Assembly (NCBI RefSeq): GCF_001580045.1
Contig: NZ_LSZP01000009.1
Location: forward strand, 1 to 64,000
Source: Cephaloticoccus capnophilus
GTDB lineage: Bacteria; Verrucomicrobiota; Verrucomicrobiia; Opitutales; Opitutaceae
Reading direction: 5' to 3'
Length of the DNA: 64,000 bases
Positions 1,813-16,052 of the stretch are shown piece by piece. Each line of letters opens with the position of its first letter. The stretch's first letter is position 1. The notes beneath the pieces are model-generated. The model did not search any database and was not told the origin of the DNA. It saw only the letters and a program-made list of their open reading frames with translations. The position numbers and the translations under genes were made by a program.

Positions 1813-1838
1813 ATTTCATGAGATACCTTTTAACATCT

Positions 1839-4052
1839 ATGACTACCAAGTTAACCATACACTCATTTCGGCTAGGGCGAGCGGCCAGGACGCTCGTCTG
1901 GGGCGCTGCGCTCGGCGGTTTGGGAGCCGCTGCGTCGCTCTCTGCGCAGTCTGCTGCGACGGCAAAGGGGCTTGAAGTGGCCGACCAGTCCTCGGTCACT
2001 GCGCTAGAGCGGCTGCAGGTCGTCAGCACGGCGACGCGCACGGAGCGGCTGCTTTCGGAAGTGCCGATTCGCACGGAGGTCGTCACGCAAGAGGACATGC
2101 ACATGCGCGGCACGTTTAACTTTTCGCAGGCGGTGGAGCTTTTTAACGGCGTGCGGGTCGAGAGCACTTGCCAAAACTGCAACACCTCGGAGGTGCTGAT
2201 GCTCGGGCTCGGCGGCGCGTATAACCAAATCCTCTTCGACGGTGCGCCGCTGATGTCGGCCCTCGGGGGCGTTTACGGCTTGGAGCAAATCCCGACGGCC
2301 TTCGTCGACCGCATCGAAATCGTCAAAGGCGGCAGTTCGGCCCTCTATGGTGCGGGCGCGGTGAGTGGCGTGATCAACCTCGTACCCATCCAACCGCTGC
2401 GCAATGGCGGCTTCCTGCAGGCCGGCGTGGACGTGCAAAAGGGCGAGCCGATTTGGCTAGCCGATGGACGCCTCGACCGCGTTTTTGCGGGCGGCAAGGG
2501 CGGGCTCTCGCTCGTGTTCCAGTCCAGCCAAAACGACCCAATCGACTACGATGGCGACGACTACAGCGAGATTACGGAGAAGGAGCTGGGCGTGGTCGGT
2601 GCGCAAGTGTGGTTCGCGCCGACTGCGAAAACGCGGCTCCGCGCCAACTATCAATACACTTGGGAAGAGCGGCGCGGGGGTAATCGCTTCGACCAGCCCG
2701 AGTATCTGGCGAACATCGCCGAGTCGCTCCAGACCAAATACCATCGCGGCGGCGTGAGCTGGGAGCAGGACGTCACGGCGGACTTCGATTTCTCGATCGG
2801 CTACTCCTTTGCCTACATTGAGCGCGACAGCTTCTACGGTGGGCTAGGCGATGTGGTCACCGACCCGAACGCCCCGGGCTACGACCCCGACGAACTCGAC
2901 CCGACGATTGCCGGCAGCGCGGCCTCCGACTCCTTCGGCCAATACGGCTACACGGAAGACCCGCTGCACTACATCGACTCGCAGTTTAACTACCGGCTCG
3001 AAAAGCACGCGTTCGCCGCAGGCATCCAGTACAAATGGGAAAAAGTGCGTGACTATAATCGCGACTTCCTCGGCAAAACGCTCGCGACCTTCGTCGATGA
3101 CAGCTTCTCCAACGTGGGTTTCTACCTGCAAGATGAGTGGACGGCGACGCCCACGTTGAGCGTCGTACTCGGCGGTCGCGTCGATAAAAGCTCGGAGCTT
3201 GATGACGCGATTTTCTCGCCGCGCGTCGCGCTCGCCTACGAGGCCACGCCCACGCTCAAGCTGCGCGCCAGCGTCGCGACCGGCTTTCGTGCGCCCGGCG
3301 TATTCGACGAAGACCTACACGTGGACACGCTCGGAGCCGACCAAATCCGCATTCGCAACGACGCCGCCCTCAAGGAGGAACAGACGATCACCGGCATGGT
3401 CGGCCTAGAGTGGCGCAACGACCCGGCTAACGCGACCTGGGGCTTCGATGTCACGGCCTCGCTGACCGATATCGACGACACCTTCCTGCTCGGGCCCACC
3501 CTCACGGATCCAGTGACGGGCGACCTCTACCAAGTCCGCAGCAATGCCTCCGGCTCGCGTGTCGAAGGCGTCGAGGCGAACTGGGTTTACATACCCAACT
3601 CGCAACTCCGCTTCGAGCTGGGCGCGGCCTACTTCCAGTCCCGCTATGACGAAGCCGAAGACATTTTCGACGACACCGACGTTGGCGGCACGACCATCAT
3701 CTCGACTCGCGATTACCTGATTACCCCGGAGTGGAGCGGCGTCGCCCAAGCGATCTGGACGCCCATGCCGGAGTTCAACGTCTTCCTCGGCGTCAAATAC
3801 GTGGGCGCGATGGACGCGCTCCACAATCGCCTCGGCGAGCTGCGCCGCACGCCCGATTTCTGGGTGGTCGATTTCGGCTTCACCCGCCACTTCGATACGG
3901 GCAAGCACCACATCGATGTCACGCTCGGCGTGAAGAACCTCTTCGATGAGCGACAAAAAGACCTAGAGCGCGGCGCCGACCGCGATAACGACTACGTCTA
4001 CGGCCCACGCTTCGCTCGCTCGTTCTTTATCACCGCGAAGTATCTCTTCTAG
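1839..4052 (+). CDS. TonB-dependent outer-membrane receptor, probably for manganese or another metal
   Basis: A 737-residue protein with a signal peptide (hydrophobic WGAALGGLGAAASLSA ahead of QS), a plug domain (about 50-170, with GGSSALYGAGAVSGVINLVP) and a long beta-barrel ending in FITAKYLF, the terminal aromatic residue expected for BAM-dependent insertion. The plug has a CQNC pair that could bind metal or form a disulphide. The substrate is inferred from the neighbours: mntR upstream and an Mn/Zn-type ABC importer downstream. An in-frame ATG at 1818 would add seven residues but sits against the candidate operator. A siderophore, cobalamin or zinc role cannot be excluded. Confidence 0.88.
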   Translation: MTTKLTIHSFRLGRAARTLVWGAALGGLGAAASLSAQSAATAKGLEVADQSSVTALERLQVVSTATRTERLLSEVPIRTEVVTQEDMHMRGTFNFSQAVELFNGVRVESTCQNCNTSEVLMLGLGGAYNQILFDGAPLMSALGGVYGLEQIPTAFVDRIEIVKGGSSALYGAGAVSGVINLVPIQPLRNGGFLQAGVDVQKGEPIWLADGRLDRVFAGGKGGLSLVFQSSQNDPIDYDGDDYSEITEKELGVVGAQVWFAPTAKTRLRANYQYTWEERRGGNRFDQPEYLANIAESLQTKYHRGGVSWEQDVTADFDFSIGYSFAYIERDSFYGGLGDVVTDPNAPGYDPDELDPTIAGSAASDSFGQYGYTEDPLHYIDSQFNYRLEKHAFAAGIQYKWEKVRDYNRDFLGKTLATFVDDSFSNVGFYLQDEWTATPTLSVVLGGRVDKSSELDDAIFSPRVALAYEATPTLKLRASVATGFRAPGVFDEDLHVDTLGADQIRIRNDAALKEEQTITGMVGLEWRNDPANATWGFDVTASLTDIDDTFLLGPTLTDPVTGDLYQVRSNASGSRVEGVEANWVYIPNSQLRFELGAAYFQSRYDEAEDIFDDTDVGGTTIISTRDYLITPEWSGVAQAIWTPMPEFNVFLGVKYVGAMDALHNRLGELRRTPDFWVVDFGFTRHFDTGKHHIDVTLGVKNLFDERQKDLERGADRDNDYVYGPRFARSFFITAKYLF

Positions 4053-4155
4053 AGCGCGCTCGGGTCATCGCGTAGGGGGCCTCGGTTGCGGTGGCTGCTC
4101 TGCCATGTGTCGTCCCGCGACCGGTGCCCCACGCGCGCTCTTGTGAAGGTAAACA

Positions 4156-4203
4156 GTCGGCTAGCTCGAATGGGTTCTCGGGCTAGCCGACGATTTGTTT
4201 TTC
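4156..4203 (+). terminator. Stem-loop after the TonB receptor gene
   Basis: GTCGGCTAGC pairs with GCTAGCCGAC (4156-4191, extendable with G-U pairs), followed by gatttgttttt. It lies between the receptor and the ABC importer and is likely an intrinsic terminator or attenuator separating them. Confidence 0.6.
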
Positions 4204-4268
4204 GAACTCGCGCCGCAAGCTGCGCAGGCCGAAAAAAACAGAGCCCGGATGCGCCTTTGAAAAAAGCT

Positions 4269-5261
4269 ATGACTACGACCACGAAATGCCCGAAGCCCTC
4301 TGTCGCCGCCGTATTAAAGTGCGCGGCGCGCGCGGCGATGCTCCTTTTCCTCGGACTTGTGGCCGCCTGCACGCCTCACCAAGACGATGCGGCCAGCGCG
4401 GCTGCAAACAGCGCCGCTAGCACGAAAGCGCCGAGCGCAAAGCTCCGCGTCGTGACGACCTTCACCATCCTCCAAGACCTCGCGCAAAATGTGGCGGGCG
4501 ACTGCGCAGTGGTGGAGTCGATCACGAAGCCAGGCGCGGAGATCCACGGCTACGAGCCGACACCGCAGGATATTATTAAGGCGCAGCAGGCCGACCTCGT
4601 GTTGTGGAACGGGCTCGGGCTGGAGCTTTGGTTCGAGCGCTTTTTTGTCCGGCTAAAGGACGTGCCAAGCGTCGTCCTCAGCGCAGGCGTCACGCCGATC
4701 GCCATCGCGGAAGGCCCTTACTCGGGGCGGCCCAATCCGCACGCGTGGATGTCGCCCCGCGCGGCACTCGTGTATATCGAGAACGTGCGTGCGGCCTTAG
4801 TCGCGCACGATCCGGCCAATGCCGCCACCTACAACGCCAACGCGGCCGCGTACGGCGCACAGTTTGCCGCGGTGGAGGCCGACCTGCGTGCGCGACTGTC
4901 GCGGATCCCCGCCGCGCAACGCTGGCTCGTCACGAGCGAAGGCGCGTTTTCCTATCTCGCGCACGATTTTGGGATGAAGGAGCTGTTCTTGTGGGCGGTA
5001 AACGCCGACCAACAAGGCACGCCCCAGCAGGTAAAAAAGGTAATCGACGCCGTCCGCGCGAACGCGATCCCCGTGATTTTCAGCGAGAGCACGATTAGCG
5101 ATAAACCCGCGCGGCAGGTCGCGCGCGAAACCGGAATCCGCTACGGCGGCACGCTCTACGTGGATTCGCTCACTGCAGCGGATGGGCCTGCGCCCACTTT
5201 ACTACGCTTGATCGGTTACAACGCGGAGGTCATTTTGCGCGGCTTTAACCTTGATGACTAA
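4269..5261 (+). CDS. Metal ABC transporter substrate-binding lipoprotein (MntA/SitA/ZnuA family)
   Basis: Captures divalent metal in the periplasm and passes it to the permeases. It has 330 residues with a lipobox, LVAAC (Cys34), then a cluster A-I binding fold ([20 protein letters not shown]). The expected four ligands are visible: His in [10 protein letters not shown], His in NPHAWMSP, Glu in VTSEGAFSY and Asp in LYVDSL. The His-His-Glu-Asp set, without the His-rich loop of zinc ZnuA, favours Mn/Fe. The ATG at 4269 is preferred because it places the signal peptide at the N-terminus. Its stop overlaps the next gene by 8 bases, so the importer is translated as one operon. Confidence 0.92.
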
Positions 5262-6234
5262 AGCCGCCCGCCCGTCCGCCGAGCCTCTCCCGCCTGCCGC
5301 TGCTAACGGCTCCACCGCCTCGGCAGCGGGCGCGGGCACCTTGCTCGACCTGAGCGTCGAGGACATCACGGTGTGTTACCCAAATGGGCATGAGGCGCTG
5401 CGCGACACCAGCTTCCGGCTGGAGGGCGGGACGATTTGCGCACTGGTCGGCGTAAACGGCAGCGGCAAATCCACCTTGTTTCGCGCAATCATGGGCTTCG
5501 TGCGCCCGGCGAGCGGGCGCGTGCGCATCGCAGGCCGCAGCGTCCAATCTGCCCTCAAGGCCAACCTCATCGCCTACGTGCCGCAGTCCGAAGAGGTGGA
5601 CTGGAGCTTCCCCGTGAGCGTGTGGGATGTCGTCCTCATGGGCCGCTACGGTTATATGAACTTCCTGCGCATCCCGCGTGCGCGCGACCGCGAAATCGCC
5701 GAGGAGAGCCTGCGCCGCGTGGGGATGCTGGAGTTTCGCGAACGCCAAATCGGCGAACTCTCCGGCGGGCAAAAGAAGCGCGTGTTCCTTGCGCGTGCGC
5801 TCGCGCAGCGCAGCCGAGTCATCCTCCTCGACGAGCCATTTACCGGCGTCGATGTGCAGACCGAGACGGCGATTATCGGGCTCTTGCGCGAGCTTTGCGC
5901 GGCGGGCCACTTGATCCTCGTCTCCACGCACAACCTCGGGGCGGTGCCCGAGTTTTGCGACTCGGTGGTGCTCGTGAATCGCACGGTTTTGGCGGCGGGG
6001 CCGACTGCGGAGGTGTTTACGCAAGACAACCTCGTGCGCGCATTTGGCGGTGTCTTGCGCCACTTCAAGTTCGACGAATCCACCGTGCAAAAACACGACG
6101 AGAAAGCGGTGACGCTGCTCACCGACGATGAGCGACCGCTCGTTTTCGGCAAAGGCGGACACCTCGAATACAGCCACCGCGCGGGTAAGGAAAACGTGAT
6201 TGCCGAGCGCGCCGAGGAGGAGGGCGACCGCTAA
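5254..6234 (+). CDS. Metal ABC transporter ATP-binding protein (MntB/ZnuC-like)
   Basis: Cytoplasmic ATPase of the importer, 326 residues. Walker A is GVNGSGKST, the Q-loop lies in [12 protein letters not shown], the signature is LSGGQKKR, Walker B is VILLDEPF and the switch His is in STHNL. About 60 residues beyond the usual ATPase core form a charged C-terminal tail ([18 protein letters not shown]...), which may sense or regulate; this is inference. Start ATG at 5254, overlapping the binding-protein stop. Confidence 0.93.
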
Positions 6235-6336
6235 CCCGCGCGGGCGTTTGGCTCCATTTACTGTTTTTTTACCGCCGCCTCAAAAAAAGACCGCCGCCGC
6301 CCAAGCCCTTCTCTCCACACACGACGACTGCGTCAC

Positions 6337-7248
6337 ATGCTCGATTCCCTCCTCACGCCATTTCACTACGATTACATGCTGCGGGCGATTTTCGTCAGCG
6401 GGTTGATTGGCTGCGTGTGTGGATTCCTCTCCTGCTTCATCACGCTCAAGGGCTGGTCGTTGATGGGCGATGCCCTTTCGCACGCGGTCGTGCCCGGCGT
6501 GGCGATCGCCTATCTGCTCGGGCTGCCCTTTGCGGCGGGCGCGTTTGCGACGGGGCTTTTGGCGGCGGCGGGCATGGGCTTTGTGAAGGCGAAGACGCCG
6601 TTGCGCGAAGACGCGGTGATTGGCGTGGTGTTTACCGCCTTCCTCGCACTCGGGCTTTTGCTCATCTCGCTAAAACCGAGCGGCGTCGCGCTACAGACGA
6701 TTCTCTTGGGGAATATTCTGGGTATCTCCGATTTCGATATTGTGCAGATCATCGGCGTCGCGGTGGGCGCGCTCCTAGTGCTCGGGCTCAAGTGGCGCGA
6801 CTTGCTGCTCGTGAGCTTCGACCCGCATCAAGCGCGCACGCTCGGGCTCAATGTCGCGGGGCTTCATTTCGTGTTGCTCGCACTGCTCTCGGCGACGGTC
6901 GTCGCCGCGCTGCAAGCCGTGGGCGCGGTGCTCGTGGTCGCGATGCTCGTGACGCCGGGCGCGACCGCCTACCTGCTGACCGACCGCTTTGGGAAAATGA
7001 TAACGCTGGCGATGACGATCGGTGCGGGCACGTCGCTCGTCGGGGCTTACGCGAGCTATTTTTTCAACGGCGCAACGGGCGGCTGTATCGTGACGCTGCA
7101 GACGCTGCTCTTCCTCGCGGTATTTTACGCCGCACCGAAGCACGGCTGGCGCGCCCAACGTGCGCCGCAGGCAGGGCGGCCCGCCCACCAAGCGGAGCGC
7201 CCGCCGCGATTTTTACCAAACGGAGGCGCCCCCGATGCTACTCGCTGA
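6337..7248 (+). CDS. Metal ABC transporter permease 1 (MntC/SitC/ZnuB family)
   Basis: Inner-membrane channel subunit, 303 residues with about eight hydrophobic helices and the family pattern GWSLMGDALSHAVVPGVA near the N-terminus. Also present are SFDPHQARTLGLN and VGAVLVVAMLVTPGATAYLL. The hydrophilic C-terminal tail is Pro/Arg-rich. Its end overlaps the start of the second permease by 14 bases. It follows the ATPase after a 102-base gap that shows nothing beyond short T and A runs. Confidence 0.92.
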   Translation: MLDSLLTPFHYDYMLRAIFVSGLIGCVCGFLSCFITLKGWSLMGDALSHAVVPGVAIAYLLGLPFAAGAFATGLLAAAGMGFVKAKTPLREDAVIGVVFTAFLALGLLLISLKPSGVALQTILLGNILGISDFDIVQIIGVAVGALLVLGLKWRDLLLVSFDPHQARTLGLNVAGLHFVLLALLSATVVAALQAVGAVLVVAMLVTPGATAYLLTDRFGKMITLAMTIGAGTSLVGAYASYFFNGATGGCIVTLQTLLFLAVFYAAPKHGWRAQRAPQAGRPAHQAERPPRFLPNGGAPDATR

Positions 7249-8104
7249 CGCCCTCCTAGAGCCGTTTCGCTATCCCTTCATGGTGGAGGCCATGTTGGCG
7301 GGGGCCGCGATTGCGGCGGTCTGTGCCGTGCTCTCCTGCTACCTCGTGCTCAAGGGCTGGTCGCTAATGGGCGATGCGATTTCGCATGCCGTGCTGCCGG
7401 GGCTCGTGCTGGCGGCGGTGTTTGGGCTGCCGCTCGCGTTGGGCGCCTTCCTCTCGGGGCTCTTTTGCGCGGTCTCGGCGGGCTTTATCAAGGCCCACAG
7501 CCGGATCAAGGAAGACACGGTTTTGGGCGTGGTTTTCACGGGCCTGTTTGCGTTCGGACTGGTGCTTTTCACGAAGCTCCAAGTCGATATCCACCTCGAT
7601 AAAGTCCTCTTTGGCAACATCCTCGGGCTGCTTCCGGGCGATCTGCACGCGACGCTGATTACGAGCGCAGGGGTGCTTGTCGTGGTCGTGGCACTACGGC
7701 GCGACTTGCTGCTTTTTTGCTTCGACCCGGCCCAAGCCCGCGTCATCGGGCTGCGCACAGGGCTGCTCTACTACTTACTGCTTTCACTGCTCGCGGTGAC
7801 GATAGTCGTCGCGCTCAAGGCGGTCGGTATTCTGCTCGTGGTCGCGATGCTCGTGACGCCTGGCTGCGTCGGGTTTCTGAGTACTGCGCGCTTTGGGAAA
7901 ATGCTCTGTGTCGCAGTCGGCTGTGCCGTGGGCTCTACGCTTTTAGGGATTTACGTGAGCTTTTTCCTCAACGCGTCCCCTGCGGCCTGCATCGTCCTCG
8001 TGCAAGTGCTCGTGTTCTTCGCGGCAATGGGGCTTAGAAAAAAGCGCGGGCTTTCCCCAAAAACGCGCTTTCCGGCTCTCGCCCAAATCCTAAACGCGAA
8101 ATGA
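7235..8104 (+). CDS. Metal ABC transporter permease 2 (MntD/SitD family)
   Basis: A 289-residue paralogue of the preceding permease, sharing GWSLMGDAISHAVLPGLV, CFDPAQARVIGLR and VGILLVVAMLVTPGC. Two different permease genes in tandem are typical of Mn/Fe-type systems (SitCD, MntCD), where they are thought to form a heterodimer. The ATG at 7235 has a good GGAGG eight bases upstream, within the end of the previous gene. Last gene of the metal operon. Confidence 0.92.
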   Translation: MLLADALLEPFRYPFMVEAMLAGAAIAAVCAVLSCYLVLKGWSLMGDAISHAVLPGLVLAAVFGLPLALGAFLSGLFCAVSAGFIKAHSRIKEDTVLGVVFTGLFAFGLVLFTKLQVDIHLDKVLFGNILGLLPGDLHATLITSAGVLVVVVALRRDLLLFCFDPAQARVIGLRTGLLYYLLLSLLAVTIVVALKAVGILLVVAMLVTPGCVGFLSTARFGKMLCVAVGCAVGSTLLGIYVSFFLNASPAACIVLVQVLVFFAAMGLRKKRGLSPKTRFPALAQILNAK

Positions 8105-8417: not shown

Positions 8418-11400
8418 ATGTTAAATAAAACGCAGGCACGCAGGCACCTGGTGCGGTGCGTTGGAGTAGTTCTACTTAGCTTTGCCTTATTAGGTTCTGT
8501 AGCCAGTGCTCAGTTGGTTCCGCCTGGGGCGACACAGTGGTGGCATAATGGGGATGGGGATTGGGAGACTGACTCCAATTGGAATCCGGGTATAAGCCCT
8601 TCGGATTTCCAGAACCCGGCGGACGTGTTGTTTAGCAGTGTGCCGAACCAAGGAGACCTTTCGGCGATTACGGTGAGCATGGAGCCCTGGGACTGGCCGA
8701 GAACACGGTCGTTGTGGTTCGATGCGGATTCGGGGATTAACTATACGATTAACGGCAGTACGCTCGATATAGGGTACGGGGTTCCGAGCGACGGGAATCT
8801 GGTTACGGTAAACTCCAGCGGTACAAAGGTCGTGGAGACCAATATCAACGGTACAGTCTATTTTTCCGCTAACACGGGATGGGATGGGTTTATTATCAAC
8901 CATTCCCAAGGTGGGCTGCGGTTTGGGGGCCTGATTCAGGGTAGCCGCTACCTGCGCGTGTCCGGCAGTGGGGCGACGCACTTTGCCGGTAACCTCGATA
9001 TTGGCGGTGGCATTGAGACGGTGCCCGGTTCTGGGACGCACTTGATCCTAAGCGGCGAAGCCCTCTACTACCTCAATCTCCGAGTGGGGGCAGAGACGCT
9101 TGTTTTTGTTAAGCGCAATAAGGCACTCGGCAGCGTGAATAGCTACTTAACCATCGATTACGGCGGCACGCTCGGAATCCGCTCTCACGTGGGAGAGTCG
9201 CTCAATTACAGCGAGCAGGCCACGCTCAATGTCAGCGGGCCGGGAGCTGTCCGCGCTTTGGGGCGTCCCGCTGTCGGTGCGATTTACCACGACGGGGGAG
9301 GCTCGCCTACCGACCTAAACCAATTCGCCGGCACCATCATTATGACCGGTGACACTACTTTCGGCGCACGCGGCGACGCGGGGGGGCTTCTCCTCAGCGG
9401 GGAGGTCTACAGCTCTACTTACCCGAGTAATGATTCGTTCAGCAAAGTCGGCTTAGGACTCATTACGCTGAGCAACCCCAATAACGACTGGACAGGCTCG
9501 ACCATAATCTGGGACGGCGTGCTGCGCACTGCCATCGACACTACTTTCGGCGCTCCCCCCGGTAGCGCTATCCCTACCTTCAGCACGATATACCTAAAAG
9601 GCGGAATTCTCGAACTGGGGGACACTAACTTTAACGGAGTCCTCGGCTCAAAAATTCAATGGGGTGACGATTTCGGCAACGACGCCTCCGGCGGATTCTC
9701 CGCTTTCGGAGGAAACCGCTCAGTCGAAATCCAAAACTGGGCAGGCGGCCTCGCCTGGCTGACTTGGGGAGCCGGCGGTTTCGTCGGTAACAACCGCGCC
9801 TTGCTCCTCAGCTCCCGCTACGCCAACGCACAAATCGATTTTAAAAACCCAATTAACCTCGGCAACGGAAGCCGCGAAATCCGCGTCGAACGCGGCCACA
9901 CCGACGCTCATGCGCGGCTCTCAGGGGCAATCACCGCCTCAGGCTTCGGACGCCTCGTCAAAACTGGCCCAGGAATGCTCTGGCTCACCGAACCGATAGA
10001 CTACCAAGTCCAAGTTAATGAAGGCGTCCTACGCGGAACCCTCGGAGGCGGGTTCGGAAACAGCAATCTCCGCCTCAGCGGGGGAGTTTTTGGCCTAGAC
10101 TCGGACTTCACAGGCTCCCTTGGCACAGGCCCAGGCCAAGTCATATGGGGCAGCGATTTCGGCCTCCCTGCCTCCGGCGGCTTCGCCGCTTACGGCGGCG
10201 ATCGTATTGTAAGACTCAACAACACCCCCTTCTGGGCTGATATTGCGGGCCACCCCGGCTTCGTGCAACCAGACCAAGAACTCCGCTTCGGCCACTACAC
10301 CGCTGACGGAACAGTAATATGGGATAAAGAGTTGAGCATCGAACGCATTCGCGTTGAACGCGGAAGAAATCCCAATGTCGCGGATGTCAGGTTTACCCAA
10401 GCAATCTTGCCAGAGTGGTTCTCCGGCAGTGAGATTAGGTTTGTAGGCGACGGACGGGCAGATATCACATCCCATATTGCTAGGACGACCCATGTCTCAG
10501 GCGTAGAGCTTCGGCTTCACGATGGAGGTATGATCTCCGGCAATAACGTATTTTTAAACATCCTCAACGGCGGTGTAGTGACCTTAGACAATCTCACCGG
10601 AAGTAATCACCCTGATCGACTCAACGACAGCTCCAAAGTTAGTGTCTTTCTCAGCGGCGGCACGCTGCGTCTCTGGGGCCAGCCCAATGGCACGTCCCAA
10701 GAGCTAGCAGACCCACTCCTTCTACAGAGCATTTTTCAAAGCAGCCCAGGAACGCTTGCCGCGAGCAACACCATCGAGTTAAAACACAACTCCACAGGCA
10801 TCAGTGACTTCACCGAACTAAGATTCGCCTTCTTGTACAAAGAGGACTTTTTCACGCTCAACTACAGGACTTACGATCGTTTTAACGCTATCCTCGAGGA
10901 CTTCAGCAAAGCTCGCTTGTCATTCACCTTCTGGAGTCCAAGCGATGCAATAAACCACGTCGCTACTGGCACGAAGATTACCCCGTGGGGAGTAGTAAAC
11001 GGGCTAGATTTTATGACGCCCGTCGCAGCTAACGGCGTCACGGAGTTGAGGCCTGTTACCAACTACTATACGAACACCAACTCAAACAATTGGAACCCCA
11101 GTATAAACCTTTTTCTAGACGAATACAGCACCAGCACGCTCGTCGGTAACCGCGCCATCAACTCACTAAAGATCGGCGACGGAGCTTCACTAACGTCAAA
11201 TGCAAACTATACGCTAACGATTAACTCCGGAGGACTCCTCGCGTACTCTGGAGAAGCGAATACTGGCGGGAGGCTCACTATTAGGACGGCGAACAACCGC
11301 CCGCTCTACGCTCATATTTACGGGAGTAGCTTAGGACTCACCGGAAGCTCAAGATTCGACGTTCCAAACTTAGTCAAAACCGGGCCTGGGGCGCTTAACC

Positions 11401-12143
11401 TTGGTTCCGCTGCAACCCATAACGTCCCCAATCTCTACATCCACGAAGGCACGGTAAACCTCAGCCAAGGCACCCTCCACGTAAACAATATATATATCGG
11501 CGACGGCGCAGGCCGAGACATCTTGGTCCTCCCTGCCAATAGCACCGACGCGCTCAGAAGGGCTACGGGCAGAACCTTCCCCAACGTATTTTTACGCGGC
11601 ACACCCCACGGACTCGACCCGAGTAACGTATACGGCGGCGAACAAAGCGACCAAGCCATCCTCCGGCTCAGCGGAAACACCAAACAGCATTTAGCCGTAC
11701 TAAATGTCATGGAACGCGGGACAATCGACTTCGCCGGTGGCGAGGTCGGGCTCGCTAACATCCTATGGATAGATCAACTGAATTTTCTCAATGCCGCCGG
11801 CAATTCTTATGATCCTAGCGCCCGGCTCTTCATCCGCAACTGGTATCAATACGAAGACTACTTACTCATTAGCCGGGGTTGGATTAATACCTACCAGCCC
11901 ACACAACTCGCCGAATTCCTCAATCAAATCGTCTTTGACGGCTACCAAGACTTCCGGCTCGTAGCACTCGACTACGACTCCCAATACTACGCAATCACCC
12001 CCTTCAACCATGTCTCAGGAGTCCCCGAGCCTCAAACCTATGGCGCAATCCTAGCCGCAGTTGGGATCGGCATGGTCGTGTGGGCAAAACGTAGACCGGT
12101 GCGCCAAAGGGCGCGCCGGTCAGTAAAACAAGCTGAGGCTTGA
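8418..12143 (+). CDS. Large autotransporter-repeat PEP-CTERM surface protein
   Basis: A 1241-residue secreted protein. The N-terminus has a signal peptide (LLSFALLGSVASA). The body is beta-solenoid-like, with repeats of the autotransporter-associated type such as GLGLITLSNPNNDWTGSTII and LVKTGPGMLWLTEP and many NLxLSGGxF motifs. The C-terminus has VPEPQTYGAILAAVG, a helix and a tail with AKRRPVRQRARRS. The passenger has no autotransporter barrel, so attachment probably relies on an exosortase-type pathway. Likely a cell-surface or extracellular-matrix protein; ligand unknown. Base composition is less GC-rich than in neighbouring operons. The tail codons contain an 11-bp hairpin (12095-12120). 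Confidence 0.88.
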   Translation: MLNKTQARRHLVRCVGVVLLSFALLGSVASAQLVPPGATQWWHNGDGDWETDSNWNPGISPSDFQNPADVLFSSVPNQGDLSAITVSMEPWDWPRTRSLWFDADSGINYTINGSTLDIGYGVPSDGNLVTVNSSGTKVVETNINGTVYFSANTGWDGFIINHSQGGLRFGGLIQGSRYLRVSGSGATHFAGNLDIGGGIETVPGSGTHLILSGEALYYLNLRVGAETLVFVKRNKALGSVNSYLTIDYGGTLGIRSHVGESLNYSEQATLNVSGPGAVRALGRPAVGAIYHDGGGSPTDLNQFAGTIIMTGDTTFGARGDAGGLLLSGEVYSSTYPSNDSFSKVGLGLITLSNPNNDWTGSTIIWDGVLRTAIDTTFGAPPGSAIPTFSTIYLKGGILELGDTNFNGVLGSKIQWGDDFGNDASGGFSAFGGNRSVEIQNWAGGLAWLTWGAGGFVGNNRALLLSSRYANAQIDFKNPINLGNGSREIRVERGHTDAHARLSGAITASGFGRLVKTGPGMLWLTEPIDYQVQVNEGVLRGTLGGGFGNSNLRLSGGVFGLDSDFTGSLGTGPGQVIWGSDFGLPASGGFAAYGGDRIVRLNNTPFWADIAGHPGFVQPDQELRFGHYTADGTVIWDKELSIERIRVERGRNPNVADVRFTQAILPEWFSGSEIRFVGDGRADITSHIARTTHVSGVELRLHDGGMISGNNVFLNILNGGVVTLDNLTGSNHPDRLNDSSKVSVFLSGGTLRLWGQPNGTSQELADPLLLQSIFQSSPGTLAASNTIELKHNSTGISDFTELRFAFLYKEDFFTLNYRTYDRFNAILEDFSKARLSFTFWSPSDAINHVATGTKITPWGVVNGLDFMTPVAANGVTELRPVTNYYTNTNSNNWNPSINLFLDEYSTSTLVGNRAINSLKIGDGASLTSNANYTLTINSGGLLAYSGEANTGGRLTIRTANNRPLYAHIYGSSLGLTGSSRFDVPNLVKTGPGALNLGSAATHNVPNLYIHEGTVNLSQGTLHVNNIYIGDGAGRDILVLPANSTDALRRATGRTFPNVFLRGTPHGLDPSNVYGGEQSDQAILRLSGNTKQHLAVLNVMERGTIDFAGGEVGLANILWIDQLNFLNAAGNSYDPSARLFIRNWYQYEDYLLISRGWINTYQPTQLAEFLNQIVFDGYQDFRLVALDYDSQYYAITPFNHVSGVPEPQTYGAILAAVGIGMVVWAKRRPVRQRARRSVKQAEA
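12095..12120 (+). repeat. Hairpin inside the Arg-rich tail codons of the 8418 gene
   Basis: ACCGGTGCGCC (12095-12105) pairs with GGCGCGCCGGT (12110-12120) around aaag, with a single G-U. It lies 23 bases before the stop codon. Confidence 0.6.
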
Positions 12144-12260: not shown

Positions 12261-12545
12261 CAGGCGTCGTGGTTTATCCGGGCGAGGAGCGATTGCCTTT
12301 AGTGAAGGACACGGAAGCGATTTCCGTTGGTCGAAGTGATGGCATTATTGCACGAGAGCTAGGCGGGGAATAGTAGCGCCGATGCGGGCTTTTAGAATTG
12401 AGTGAGCTGAACTAGGTAGCCTGTTTCTATTTTATATCGGGCGGCCTGGTCGCTTCTTGGGCGCATGTTAACGGCTCATACTATCAGAGGCTTTCTGCTG
12501 TTTTTTATTACGCAGTTTATTACTGCCAGCCTGTCATACGCAAAT

Positions 12546-12557
12546 CCCCCCCCCCCC
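12546..12557 (+). repeat. Poly-C tract of 12 within a coding region
   Basis: Twelve consecutive C directly after the signal-peptide codons. It is the longest G or C run I saw in the window; the others reach about seven. Position and length fit slipped-strand phase variation. Confidence 0.85.
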
Positions 12558-13180
12558 TGGCGGAGATAGCGTAGAAAAGAAGAGCCCGAAGAGTAGTGTT
12601 TCTTTACACACTTCTGACGAGGAGGAGGATGAAGAACAAGATCCGCCAGATTCTCATAGGAGTAAATACCGTGAAGACTGGGGTAATATTCCTAATTTCG
12701 GCAATGTGACTCTTAATAAGAGAATGAATACGTTTTATCTGGGTAATCATCACACATCTAGGACTCCTTCCCTAGAAGTTTATACAGGGAGAGACGTATT
12801 GGCGACTGTATCTTTTGGTAGAGGCCAGAGTGGTGAACAGTGGTTCTATATTGATAATCTTTGGGTAAGTCCTGATTCTTTTTTGGAGTTCGATATTAGA
12901 GAAATGGGATATTCAGGAGGAGCCTTTGTTATGACCCGTTATGATTATAGTTCTATTATGCATCGGATTGGTTTTCTTGATAGCGAATTGGGAAGGCGTG
13001 GGGCTAGGTCCGAACATTGGCATGCTGGCTGGTATCGGATTTATGTAGATAAAGTTAGAGAGTGGACTCCGCCGATGGTTCCTGAGCCGAGCACGTATGG
13101 CGCGGTTTTATTGGGACTTGGGCTTGGGGTAGTTGTTTTAAAGCGACGAAGGGTTAAGAAAGGTCGGAGGGGGAGCGTGC

Positions 13181-13215
13181 TAGGGTCTGTTCCTGTTTCA
13201 AACGTGTCCGCGAGG
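13181..13215 (+). repeat. REP-like module overlapping the end of the poly-C gene
   Basis: TAGGGTCTGTTC followed by TTTCAAACGTGTCCGCGAG, a rearranged version of the module at 1165, 49538 and 61377. It encodes the last residues of the PEP-CTERM frame ending at 13218. Confidence 0.6.
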
Positions 13216-13220
13216 TAAAG

Positions 13221-15757: not shown

Positions 15758-16052
15758 CCACTACGCGTGGGGCGGCAGCGTGTCGCTGCATCCATTCAAT
15801 TTGGGATTTCTCCTCGCGCTATCGCGCGAAAGCGAAATCCCAAATTTGAAAGTACTCTCCCCTGTCGCGTTGCGACAGGGAGGGGAAAGTAGAGTGATAA
15901 CCCGTTTGGGCGAATTGGGAAAAATCACCAGTAAACTCCCGCTTCCGAGTTTGGGGGCCTTTCTACCGAACGCTTGGCTGCCGTGCGTATGCACGGCAGC
16001 CAAGCGTTCGGTAAATGGGTGCAGCGACACGCTGCCGCCCCACGCGCAGTGG
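15758..16052 (+). repeat. Modular palindromic element, copy B (complete)
   Basis: Bounded by 39-bp inverted repeats (15758-15796 and 16014-16052, two mismatches) beginning CCACTnCGCGTGGGGC. Inside, in order: palindrome GCAGCG-tgt-CGCTGC; stem AATTTGGGATTTC (15798-15810) with its complement at 15834-15846, enclosing TCGCGC-tatc-GCGCGA; stem CCCTGTCGC-gtt-GCGACAGGG (15860-15880); a conserved stretch with GAGTGATAACCCGTTTGGGC; and a perfect 23-bp hairpin (15964-16013). No transposase or credible protein is inside. It looks like a non-autonomous mobile element or a large structured nucleic acid. It starts four bases after the RidA stop. Confidence 0.85.
15964..16013. repeat. Perfect 23-bp hairpin with 4-base loop
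   Basis: Arms 15964-15986 and 15991-16013 are exact reverse complements, starting TACCGAACGC, around gtat. The equivalent in copy C differs at two stem positions, both compensated. It could also end transcription of the RidA operon, but no T-tract follows. Confidence 0.85.

Follow-up and report, generated by a model that had tools for sequence, protein, structure and literature searches.

Directly 3' of a signal peptide at 12465-12545, the sequence analysed here reads exactly twelve C on the forward strand (12546-12557), and the question raised by this locus is whether such a homopolymer is a sequencing error, the scar of a decaying gene or a device by which a surface protein is turned on and off. 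The window, the whole 64,000-nucleotide stretch under analysis, belongs to contig C9 of the Cephaloticoccus capnophilus genome (G000; 2.09 Mb, 66 contigs). In this and the other genomes, the sequence read comprised the stretches around tracts and around matches to the protein family described below. The parts of the window gene are as follows.

12405-12464, + strand: 5' flank of the gene, forming with the signal-peptide region a leader present three times in the genome.
12465-12545, + strand: signal peptide MLTAHTIRGFLLFFITQFITASLSYAN, probably cleaved after SYA and conserved among paralogues; assigned by eye, and out of frame with the mature part at the assembled tract length.
12546-12557, + strand: C12 tract, the proposed slipped-strand switch, OFF as assembled (sequence, run-length statistics).
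12567-12569, + strand: TAG closing the OFF-state frame after four proline codons and WRR (reading-frame translation).
12559-13218, + strand: mature part of 219 codons with an all-beta core and a PEP-CTERM anchor, predicted to be expressed if the tract has 11 or 14 C (open frame, profile matches, structural model).
13078-13149, + strand: PEP-CTERM motif in the VPEPSTYGAVLLGLGLGVVVLKRR region (PF07589 and TIGR02595, both over cut-off).

The frame of the ATG at 12465 thus encodes MLTAHTIRGFLLFFITQFITASLSYAN-PPPP-WRR and ends at the TAG, the second off frame is shut after 4 codons, and the frame starting at 12559 stays open to a stop at 13216-13218. By frame arithmetic, a tract of 11 or 14 C makes one gene of the signal peptide and the 219-codon frame. 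The first-pass annotation had described a C12 tract behind the signal peptide with a stop at 12567, a second frame of more than 200 codons ending in a PEP-CTERM anchor, and a joining of the two by the loss of one C or the gain of two; each of these statements agrees with the sequence. The anchor reaches 24.7 bits with Pfam PF07589 (curated cut-off 20.7) and 26.5 bits with NCBIfam TIGR02595 (curated cut-off 16), and the genome encodes one exosortase (PF09721, 127 bits, G000:C60:31407-32213). A C-terminal PEP motif with a hydrophobic helix and a basic end, an N-terminal signal peptide and an exosortase in the same genome, by which substrates of this sorting system are recognised, are therefore all present. 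So is the hallmark of a contingency locus, a pure repeat in excess of chance at a place where a change of length would flip the frame.

The excess over chance becomes apparent at the scale of the whole genome. The longest C run elsewhere in the window is of 6, and runs of 12 or more C number 18 in the 2.09-Mb genome, both strands included, for an expectation of 0.03-0.17; the C12 tract is therefore not a product of chance. A search of both strands for runs of at least 9 C returned 30, of which 26, with lengths of 9-23, belong to a set defined by its position either after a short, ATG-led hydrophobic leader or before a long frame. Wherever these long frames could be traced to their end without a second frameshift, they finish in PEP-CTERM. 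The C lies on the coding strand in 26/26 tracts of the set; all 25 runs of at least 10 C fall within it, where about 1-3 would be expected by chance anywhere in the genome, and the four runs outside it are exactly C9 each. Runs of A or T of at least 9 are only 10 in number, and mutS1 and mutL are intact; there is therefore no general hypermutation, and the loss of mismatch repair, considered as a cause of the tracts, is ruled out by these two intact genes.

Most of the set (22/26 tracts) lies at contig ends, within about 10 bases, out of 132 contig ends in total. Four tracts were assembled through, 14 are known from their leader side and 8 from their mature side; the first two classes imply at least 18 tract-bearing genes. 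Contig breaks at the tracts are compatible with mixed tract lengths in the sequenced population, and also with stutter in PCR or sequencing or with leaders shared among paralogues. The window contig itself begins inside another member of the family, whose signal peptide and any tract are cut off, and a further relative, devoid of a C tract, stands upstream of the C12 gene.

1-969, + strand: 3' portion of a further family member, its frame open from base 1 on (match to alignment A2, 9.5e-121).
8418-12143, + strand: PATR/beta-strand-repeat protein of 1241 aa with a PEP-CTERM-like end and no C tract (profile matches; untracted relative).

In some giant PATR/PEP-CTERM proteins, of about 1200 aa, the tract precedes the hydrophobic core of the signal peptide instead of following it.

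L063:1-60 (start of G000 C34), L071 (end of C64) and L272:1534-1543 (G006): tract before the hydrophobic core.

The leader of the window gene (12405-12545, 141 bp) is 91% identical to G000:C4:80847-80987 and to G000:C48:25750-25890, and all three genomic copies run into a C tract, of 12, at least 22 and at least 11 C. Another group of paralogues, with MASLF leaders, displays 85-97% identity from about 150 bases upstream up to the tract, falling to 64-75% just 3' of it. Near-identical leaders at several loci, a divergence that begins at the tract and assembly breaks at the tracts could all be expected if the leader and tract units served mainly as recombination anchors for exchanging mature parts among loci. 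Such cassette shuffling is, in our estimation, quite unlikely as the main role of these units: each leader type appears to keep to its own type of mature part, as with the MLTAHTIR leader, present three times, and the mature part of the window kind, present twice, and an anchor would leave the purity of the C run unexplained.

A second genome allows these observations to be extended. The closest match to the family alignment was found in Cephaloticoccus primus CAG34 (G006), an isolate from the gut of a turtle ant (PMC5840417), and the Cephaloticoccus carrying the window gene is probably a turtle-ant gut symbiont as well. The family profile matches 41 times in G000 and 37 times in G006, where the same arrangement recurs with tracts of 10-37 C. 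Several of these were assembled through, three of them (C11, C10 and C11) OFF and one, the C10 of L272, ON; those at contig ends reach C36-C37. Tract lengths differ among paralogues and between the two species, each represented by one assembly. Poly-C of 23 and 40 also ends two contigs of G006 in the absence of a signal-peptide gene (L263 at the end of C53, within an apparent alaS, and L268 at the end of C65). These two ends are probably assembly artefacts, and the contig-end tracts of G006 therefore need to be taken with care.

Beyond these two species, the tract was absent from two homologues of full length in G007 and G008, further members of the GTDB genus that are not identified as ant symbionts. 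It was likewise absent from more distant Opitutaceae homologues wherever the N-terminus could be read, the N-terminus being out of reach for many. C tracts in other genomes were considered as parallels and rejected: those read in G002 and G007 lie in unrelated or N-flanked sequence, and those sampled in G010, G013 and G060 lack the signal-peptide pattern when examined by eye. G060, a 5.7-Mb genome of the same family, holds about 1576 C runs of at least 10, mostly preceded by T and found in coding and non-coding sequence (for example L280, L292 and L300); this excess stems either from an expansion across the whole genome or from an artefact in the sequence. G013, of the same genus as G060, has 50 such runs. 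Viral contigs, scanned for strain variants of the window leader followed by a C run, gave no match.

Since a run of at least 12 C is difficult to sequence, the assembled lengths might be errors of assembly or sequencing, with most genes really in frame and the poly-C a fixed poly-proline linker. The two poly-C ends of G006 that lack a plausible gene context, and the tracts of G007 that adjoin runs of N, lend this some credit. We nonetheless regard it as very unlikely. Pure CCC over 9-23 bases at 26 sites, never interrupted by CCA, CCG or CCT, is unlike the outcome of selection for proline alone, even with an error of one C in every length, and the untracted relatives use mixed codons at the same site (APSPLL in L137, SSPLPI in L141). 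Neither the chance expectation given above nor the presence of a tract at the same site in two separately assembled genomes is easily attributed to error.

The state of the frames bears on whether the genes are still in use. Of the eight tracts assembled through in the two species, 7/8 are OFF and 1/8 is ON. With random phase, one or no ON tract among 8 has a probability of 0.20, so that the count agrees with random phase, and also with partial decay. Eight paralogue pairs of G000 indicate which frames have been kept: they differ by 126-241 substitutions per pair over 188-326 codons with 0 stops, for a neutral expectation of 5-8 stops per pair, the frames counted being the longest open ones. 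By a simple counting method, whose values gene conversion or misalignment could inflate, dN/dS is 0.7-1.7 at a dS of about 0.2, with a lower bound of at least 1 in 4/8 pairs. The window gene and its paralogue L172, at the start of C5, give 1.74 [1.13-2.71] and no stop. Frames kept open under fast amino-acid change are, as far as these comparisons go, what a diversifying surface protein would show. Behind the tracts, the off frames close after a mean of 4.5 codons; at control positions in the same genes the mean is 16.4, a difference that is suggestive only because the genes are related.

Decay of the family, in the course of its loss from a host-restricted symbiont, would turn the tracts into expansions in unneeded genes. 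The predominance of OFF tracts would then be accounted for, as would the small genome (2.09 Mb) and two individual copies: L157 has lost its tract and is out of frame, and the tract gene at G000:C20:31850 (L057:11851) has a second frameshift, of one extra G, some 370-390 bases downstream. This second frameshift is due either to decay of the copy or to an error in the sequence. The open frame was already taken by the first-pass annotation as speaking against decay, and the missing stops behind OFF tracts now bear it out. Decay is also difficult to reconcile with the retention of about 40 family matches in each of two species, with the ON state of the L272 tract gene, and with the near confinement of long C runs to this gene set, whereas decay should be general. 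We consider it most improbable.

Long homopolymers are slippery for RNA polymerase and for the ribosome. Slippage of either on the tract could provide a fixed fraction of full-length protein from any tract length, without a change in the DNA, and would explain why most assembled genes are nominally OFF with their frames nonetheless conserved. Programmed frameshifting, however, usually fixes both the site and the phase, and the lengths of 9-23 among paralogues share no common phase. Moreover, DNA slippage is expected at such lengths anyway, so that the two processes are not exclusive. As a replacement for a switch in the DNA, slippage during expression appears unlikely.

The reading best supported by these comparisons is that of a phase-variable PEP-CTERM surface protein, as first proposed from the window gene and now reinforced by the recurrence of the tract, in 18 or more paralogous genes of this genome and again in a second species. 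With high confidence, we interpret C12 as one of an array of independent slipped-strand ON/OFF switches on a diversifying, exosortase-anchored family of surface proteins. In the proposed plan of each gene, a conserved leader (flank and signal peptide) is followed at the signal-peptide junction by a pure C tract, ahead of the hydrophobic core in a few giant members; a mature part that has diversified comes next, and a PEP-CTERM anchor closes the gene. This anatomy, its recurrence in two species, the current frame states and the conservation of fast-changing frames can be read from the assembled sequences. In living cells, slippage during replication would lengthen or shorten the tract by one or a few C. 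The signal peptide would be in frame in one of the three phases, and the protein would then be exported with an N-terminal poly-proline and anchored by the exosortase, presumably at the cell surface. In the other two phases, translation would stop within a few codons and yield only a short secreted peptide. With at least 18 genes switching independently between ON and OFF expression, the combination of proteins would differ among the cells of one clone.

What these proteins do may be approached through their fold. A model of the common mature domain of the family (pLDDT 88.9) is all-beta with a C-terminal helix, which occupies residues 282-308 of the modelled member, after PEPATYG. Compared by VIA-align, it resembles, at Z 13-17, right-handed beta-helices that include many autotransporter passengers and adhesins: 7jvi (Z 16.8, rmsd 3.4, 244 aligned), EspC (15.3), Awp3b (14.3) and pertactin (13.7). 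Foldseek alone found no match to this model at E 0.001 or better, weak ones only. The common mature domain is thus predicted to be an adhesin-like right-handed beta-helix; a fold of this kind is no proof of adhesion. In the window protein, a shorter relative, the core is also all-beta, modelled at low to moderate confidence (pLDDT 70). In the ant gut, the family may contribute to adhesion, or to the evasion of phage or host recognition.

On other aspects, the window also includes an apparent metal ABC transporter operon at 4086-8104 (binding protein, ATPase and two permeases) and, upstream of it, an apparent TonB-type receptor gene at 1818-4052, both recognised by eye in the list of open reading frames. 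A 295-bp element at 15758-16052 is bounded by inverted repeats of 39 nt (95% complementary), contains an internal perfect hairpin of 23 nt and ORFs on both strands, and resembles a small MITE.

Among pathogens exposed to vertebrate immunity, slipped-strand switching of surface proteins is textbook knowledge. In Neisseria, Haemophilus, Campylobacter and Helicobacter, as proposed here, a repeat near the 5' end sets a frame ON or OFF at many loci per genome; a CT repeat in the 5' region of H. pylori oipA switches its frame (PMC10564699), and N. meningitidis has 115 candidate phase-variable genes (PMC5084427). The present, predicted system differs by its phylum, its probable insect symbiont and its exosortase/PEP-CTERM sorting, and in that one paralogous family with common leaders bears most of the switches. 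Closer in phylogeny, phase variation at mononucleotide repeats was proposed from the genome of Akkermansia muciniphila, where 17 genes, two of them capsule genes, have tracts over 8 bp (PMC3048395). This bacterium has in common with Cephaloticoccus its phylum, a gut habitat, and PEP-CTERM proteins with an exosortase (PMC3048395). Its tracts were not linked to PEP-CTERM proteins in that study; those described here are longer and concentrated on one PEP-CTERM family. The PEP-CTERM/PATR autotransporter-type proteins of Opitutaceae share the C-terminal anchor, the beta-helix-like mature part and family-wide homologues, but outside the ant symbionts they are free of a C tract where the N-terminus can be read.

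In the literature covered, to which most subscription journals and preprints did not belong, no paper was found linking repeat-tract phase variation to PEP-CTERM proteins, and matches for exosortase and antigenic variation were judged unrelated. The only paper that came up for PEP-CTERM together with homopolymeric tracts was the Akkermansia genome study. Homopolymer frame switching itself is known; what appears to be new is a concentrated, diversifying, multi-locus poly-C system on a PEP-CTERM family in a probable insect mutualist. If confirmed, slipped-strand switching of surface proteins would extend to a probably beneficial symbiont of the ant gut, in a phylum where it was only suggested before, and to proteins of the exosortase/PEP-CTERM system, whose function is still poorly understood.

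On average, 84% of the midgut community of turtle ants (Cephalotes) is Cephaloticoccus (PMC8091110). Such a share makes it possible to ask directly whether surface diversity, where adaptive immunity is absent, is driven by phages, by recognition on the part of the host or by the partition of niches. The switching claim could be checked soon, with C. primus CAG34 in culture and sequence reads already in existence, among them short-read metagenomes from the guts of 17 Cephalotes species (PMC5840417). We find it reasonably likely that a mutualistic gut symbiont here possesses a system resembling antigenic variation, in which some 20 exosortase-anchored beta-helix proteins under positive selection are switched independently by poly-C. 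If so, the near-pure population of an ant midgut could hold very many surface states at once, whether as a defence against phages, to escape recognition by the host or to divide up niches.
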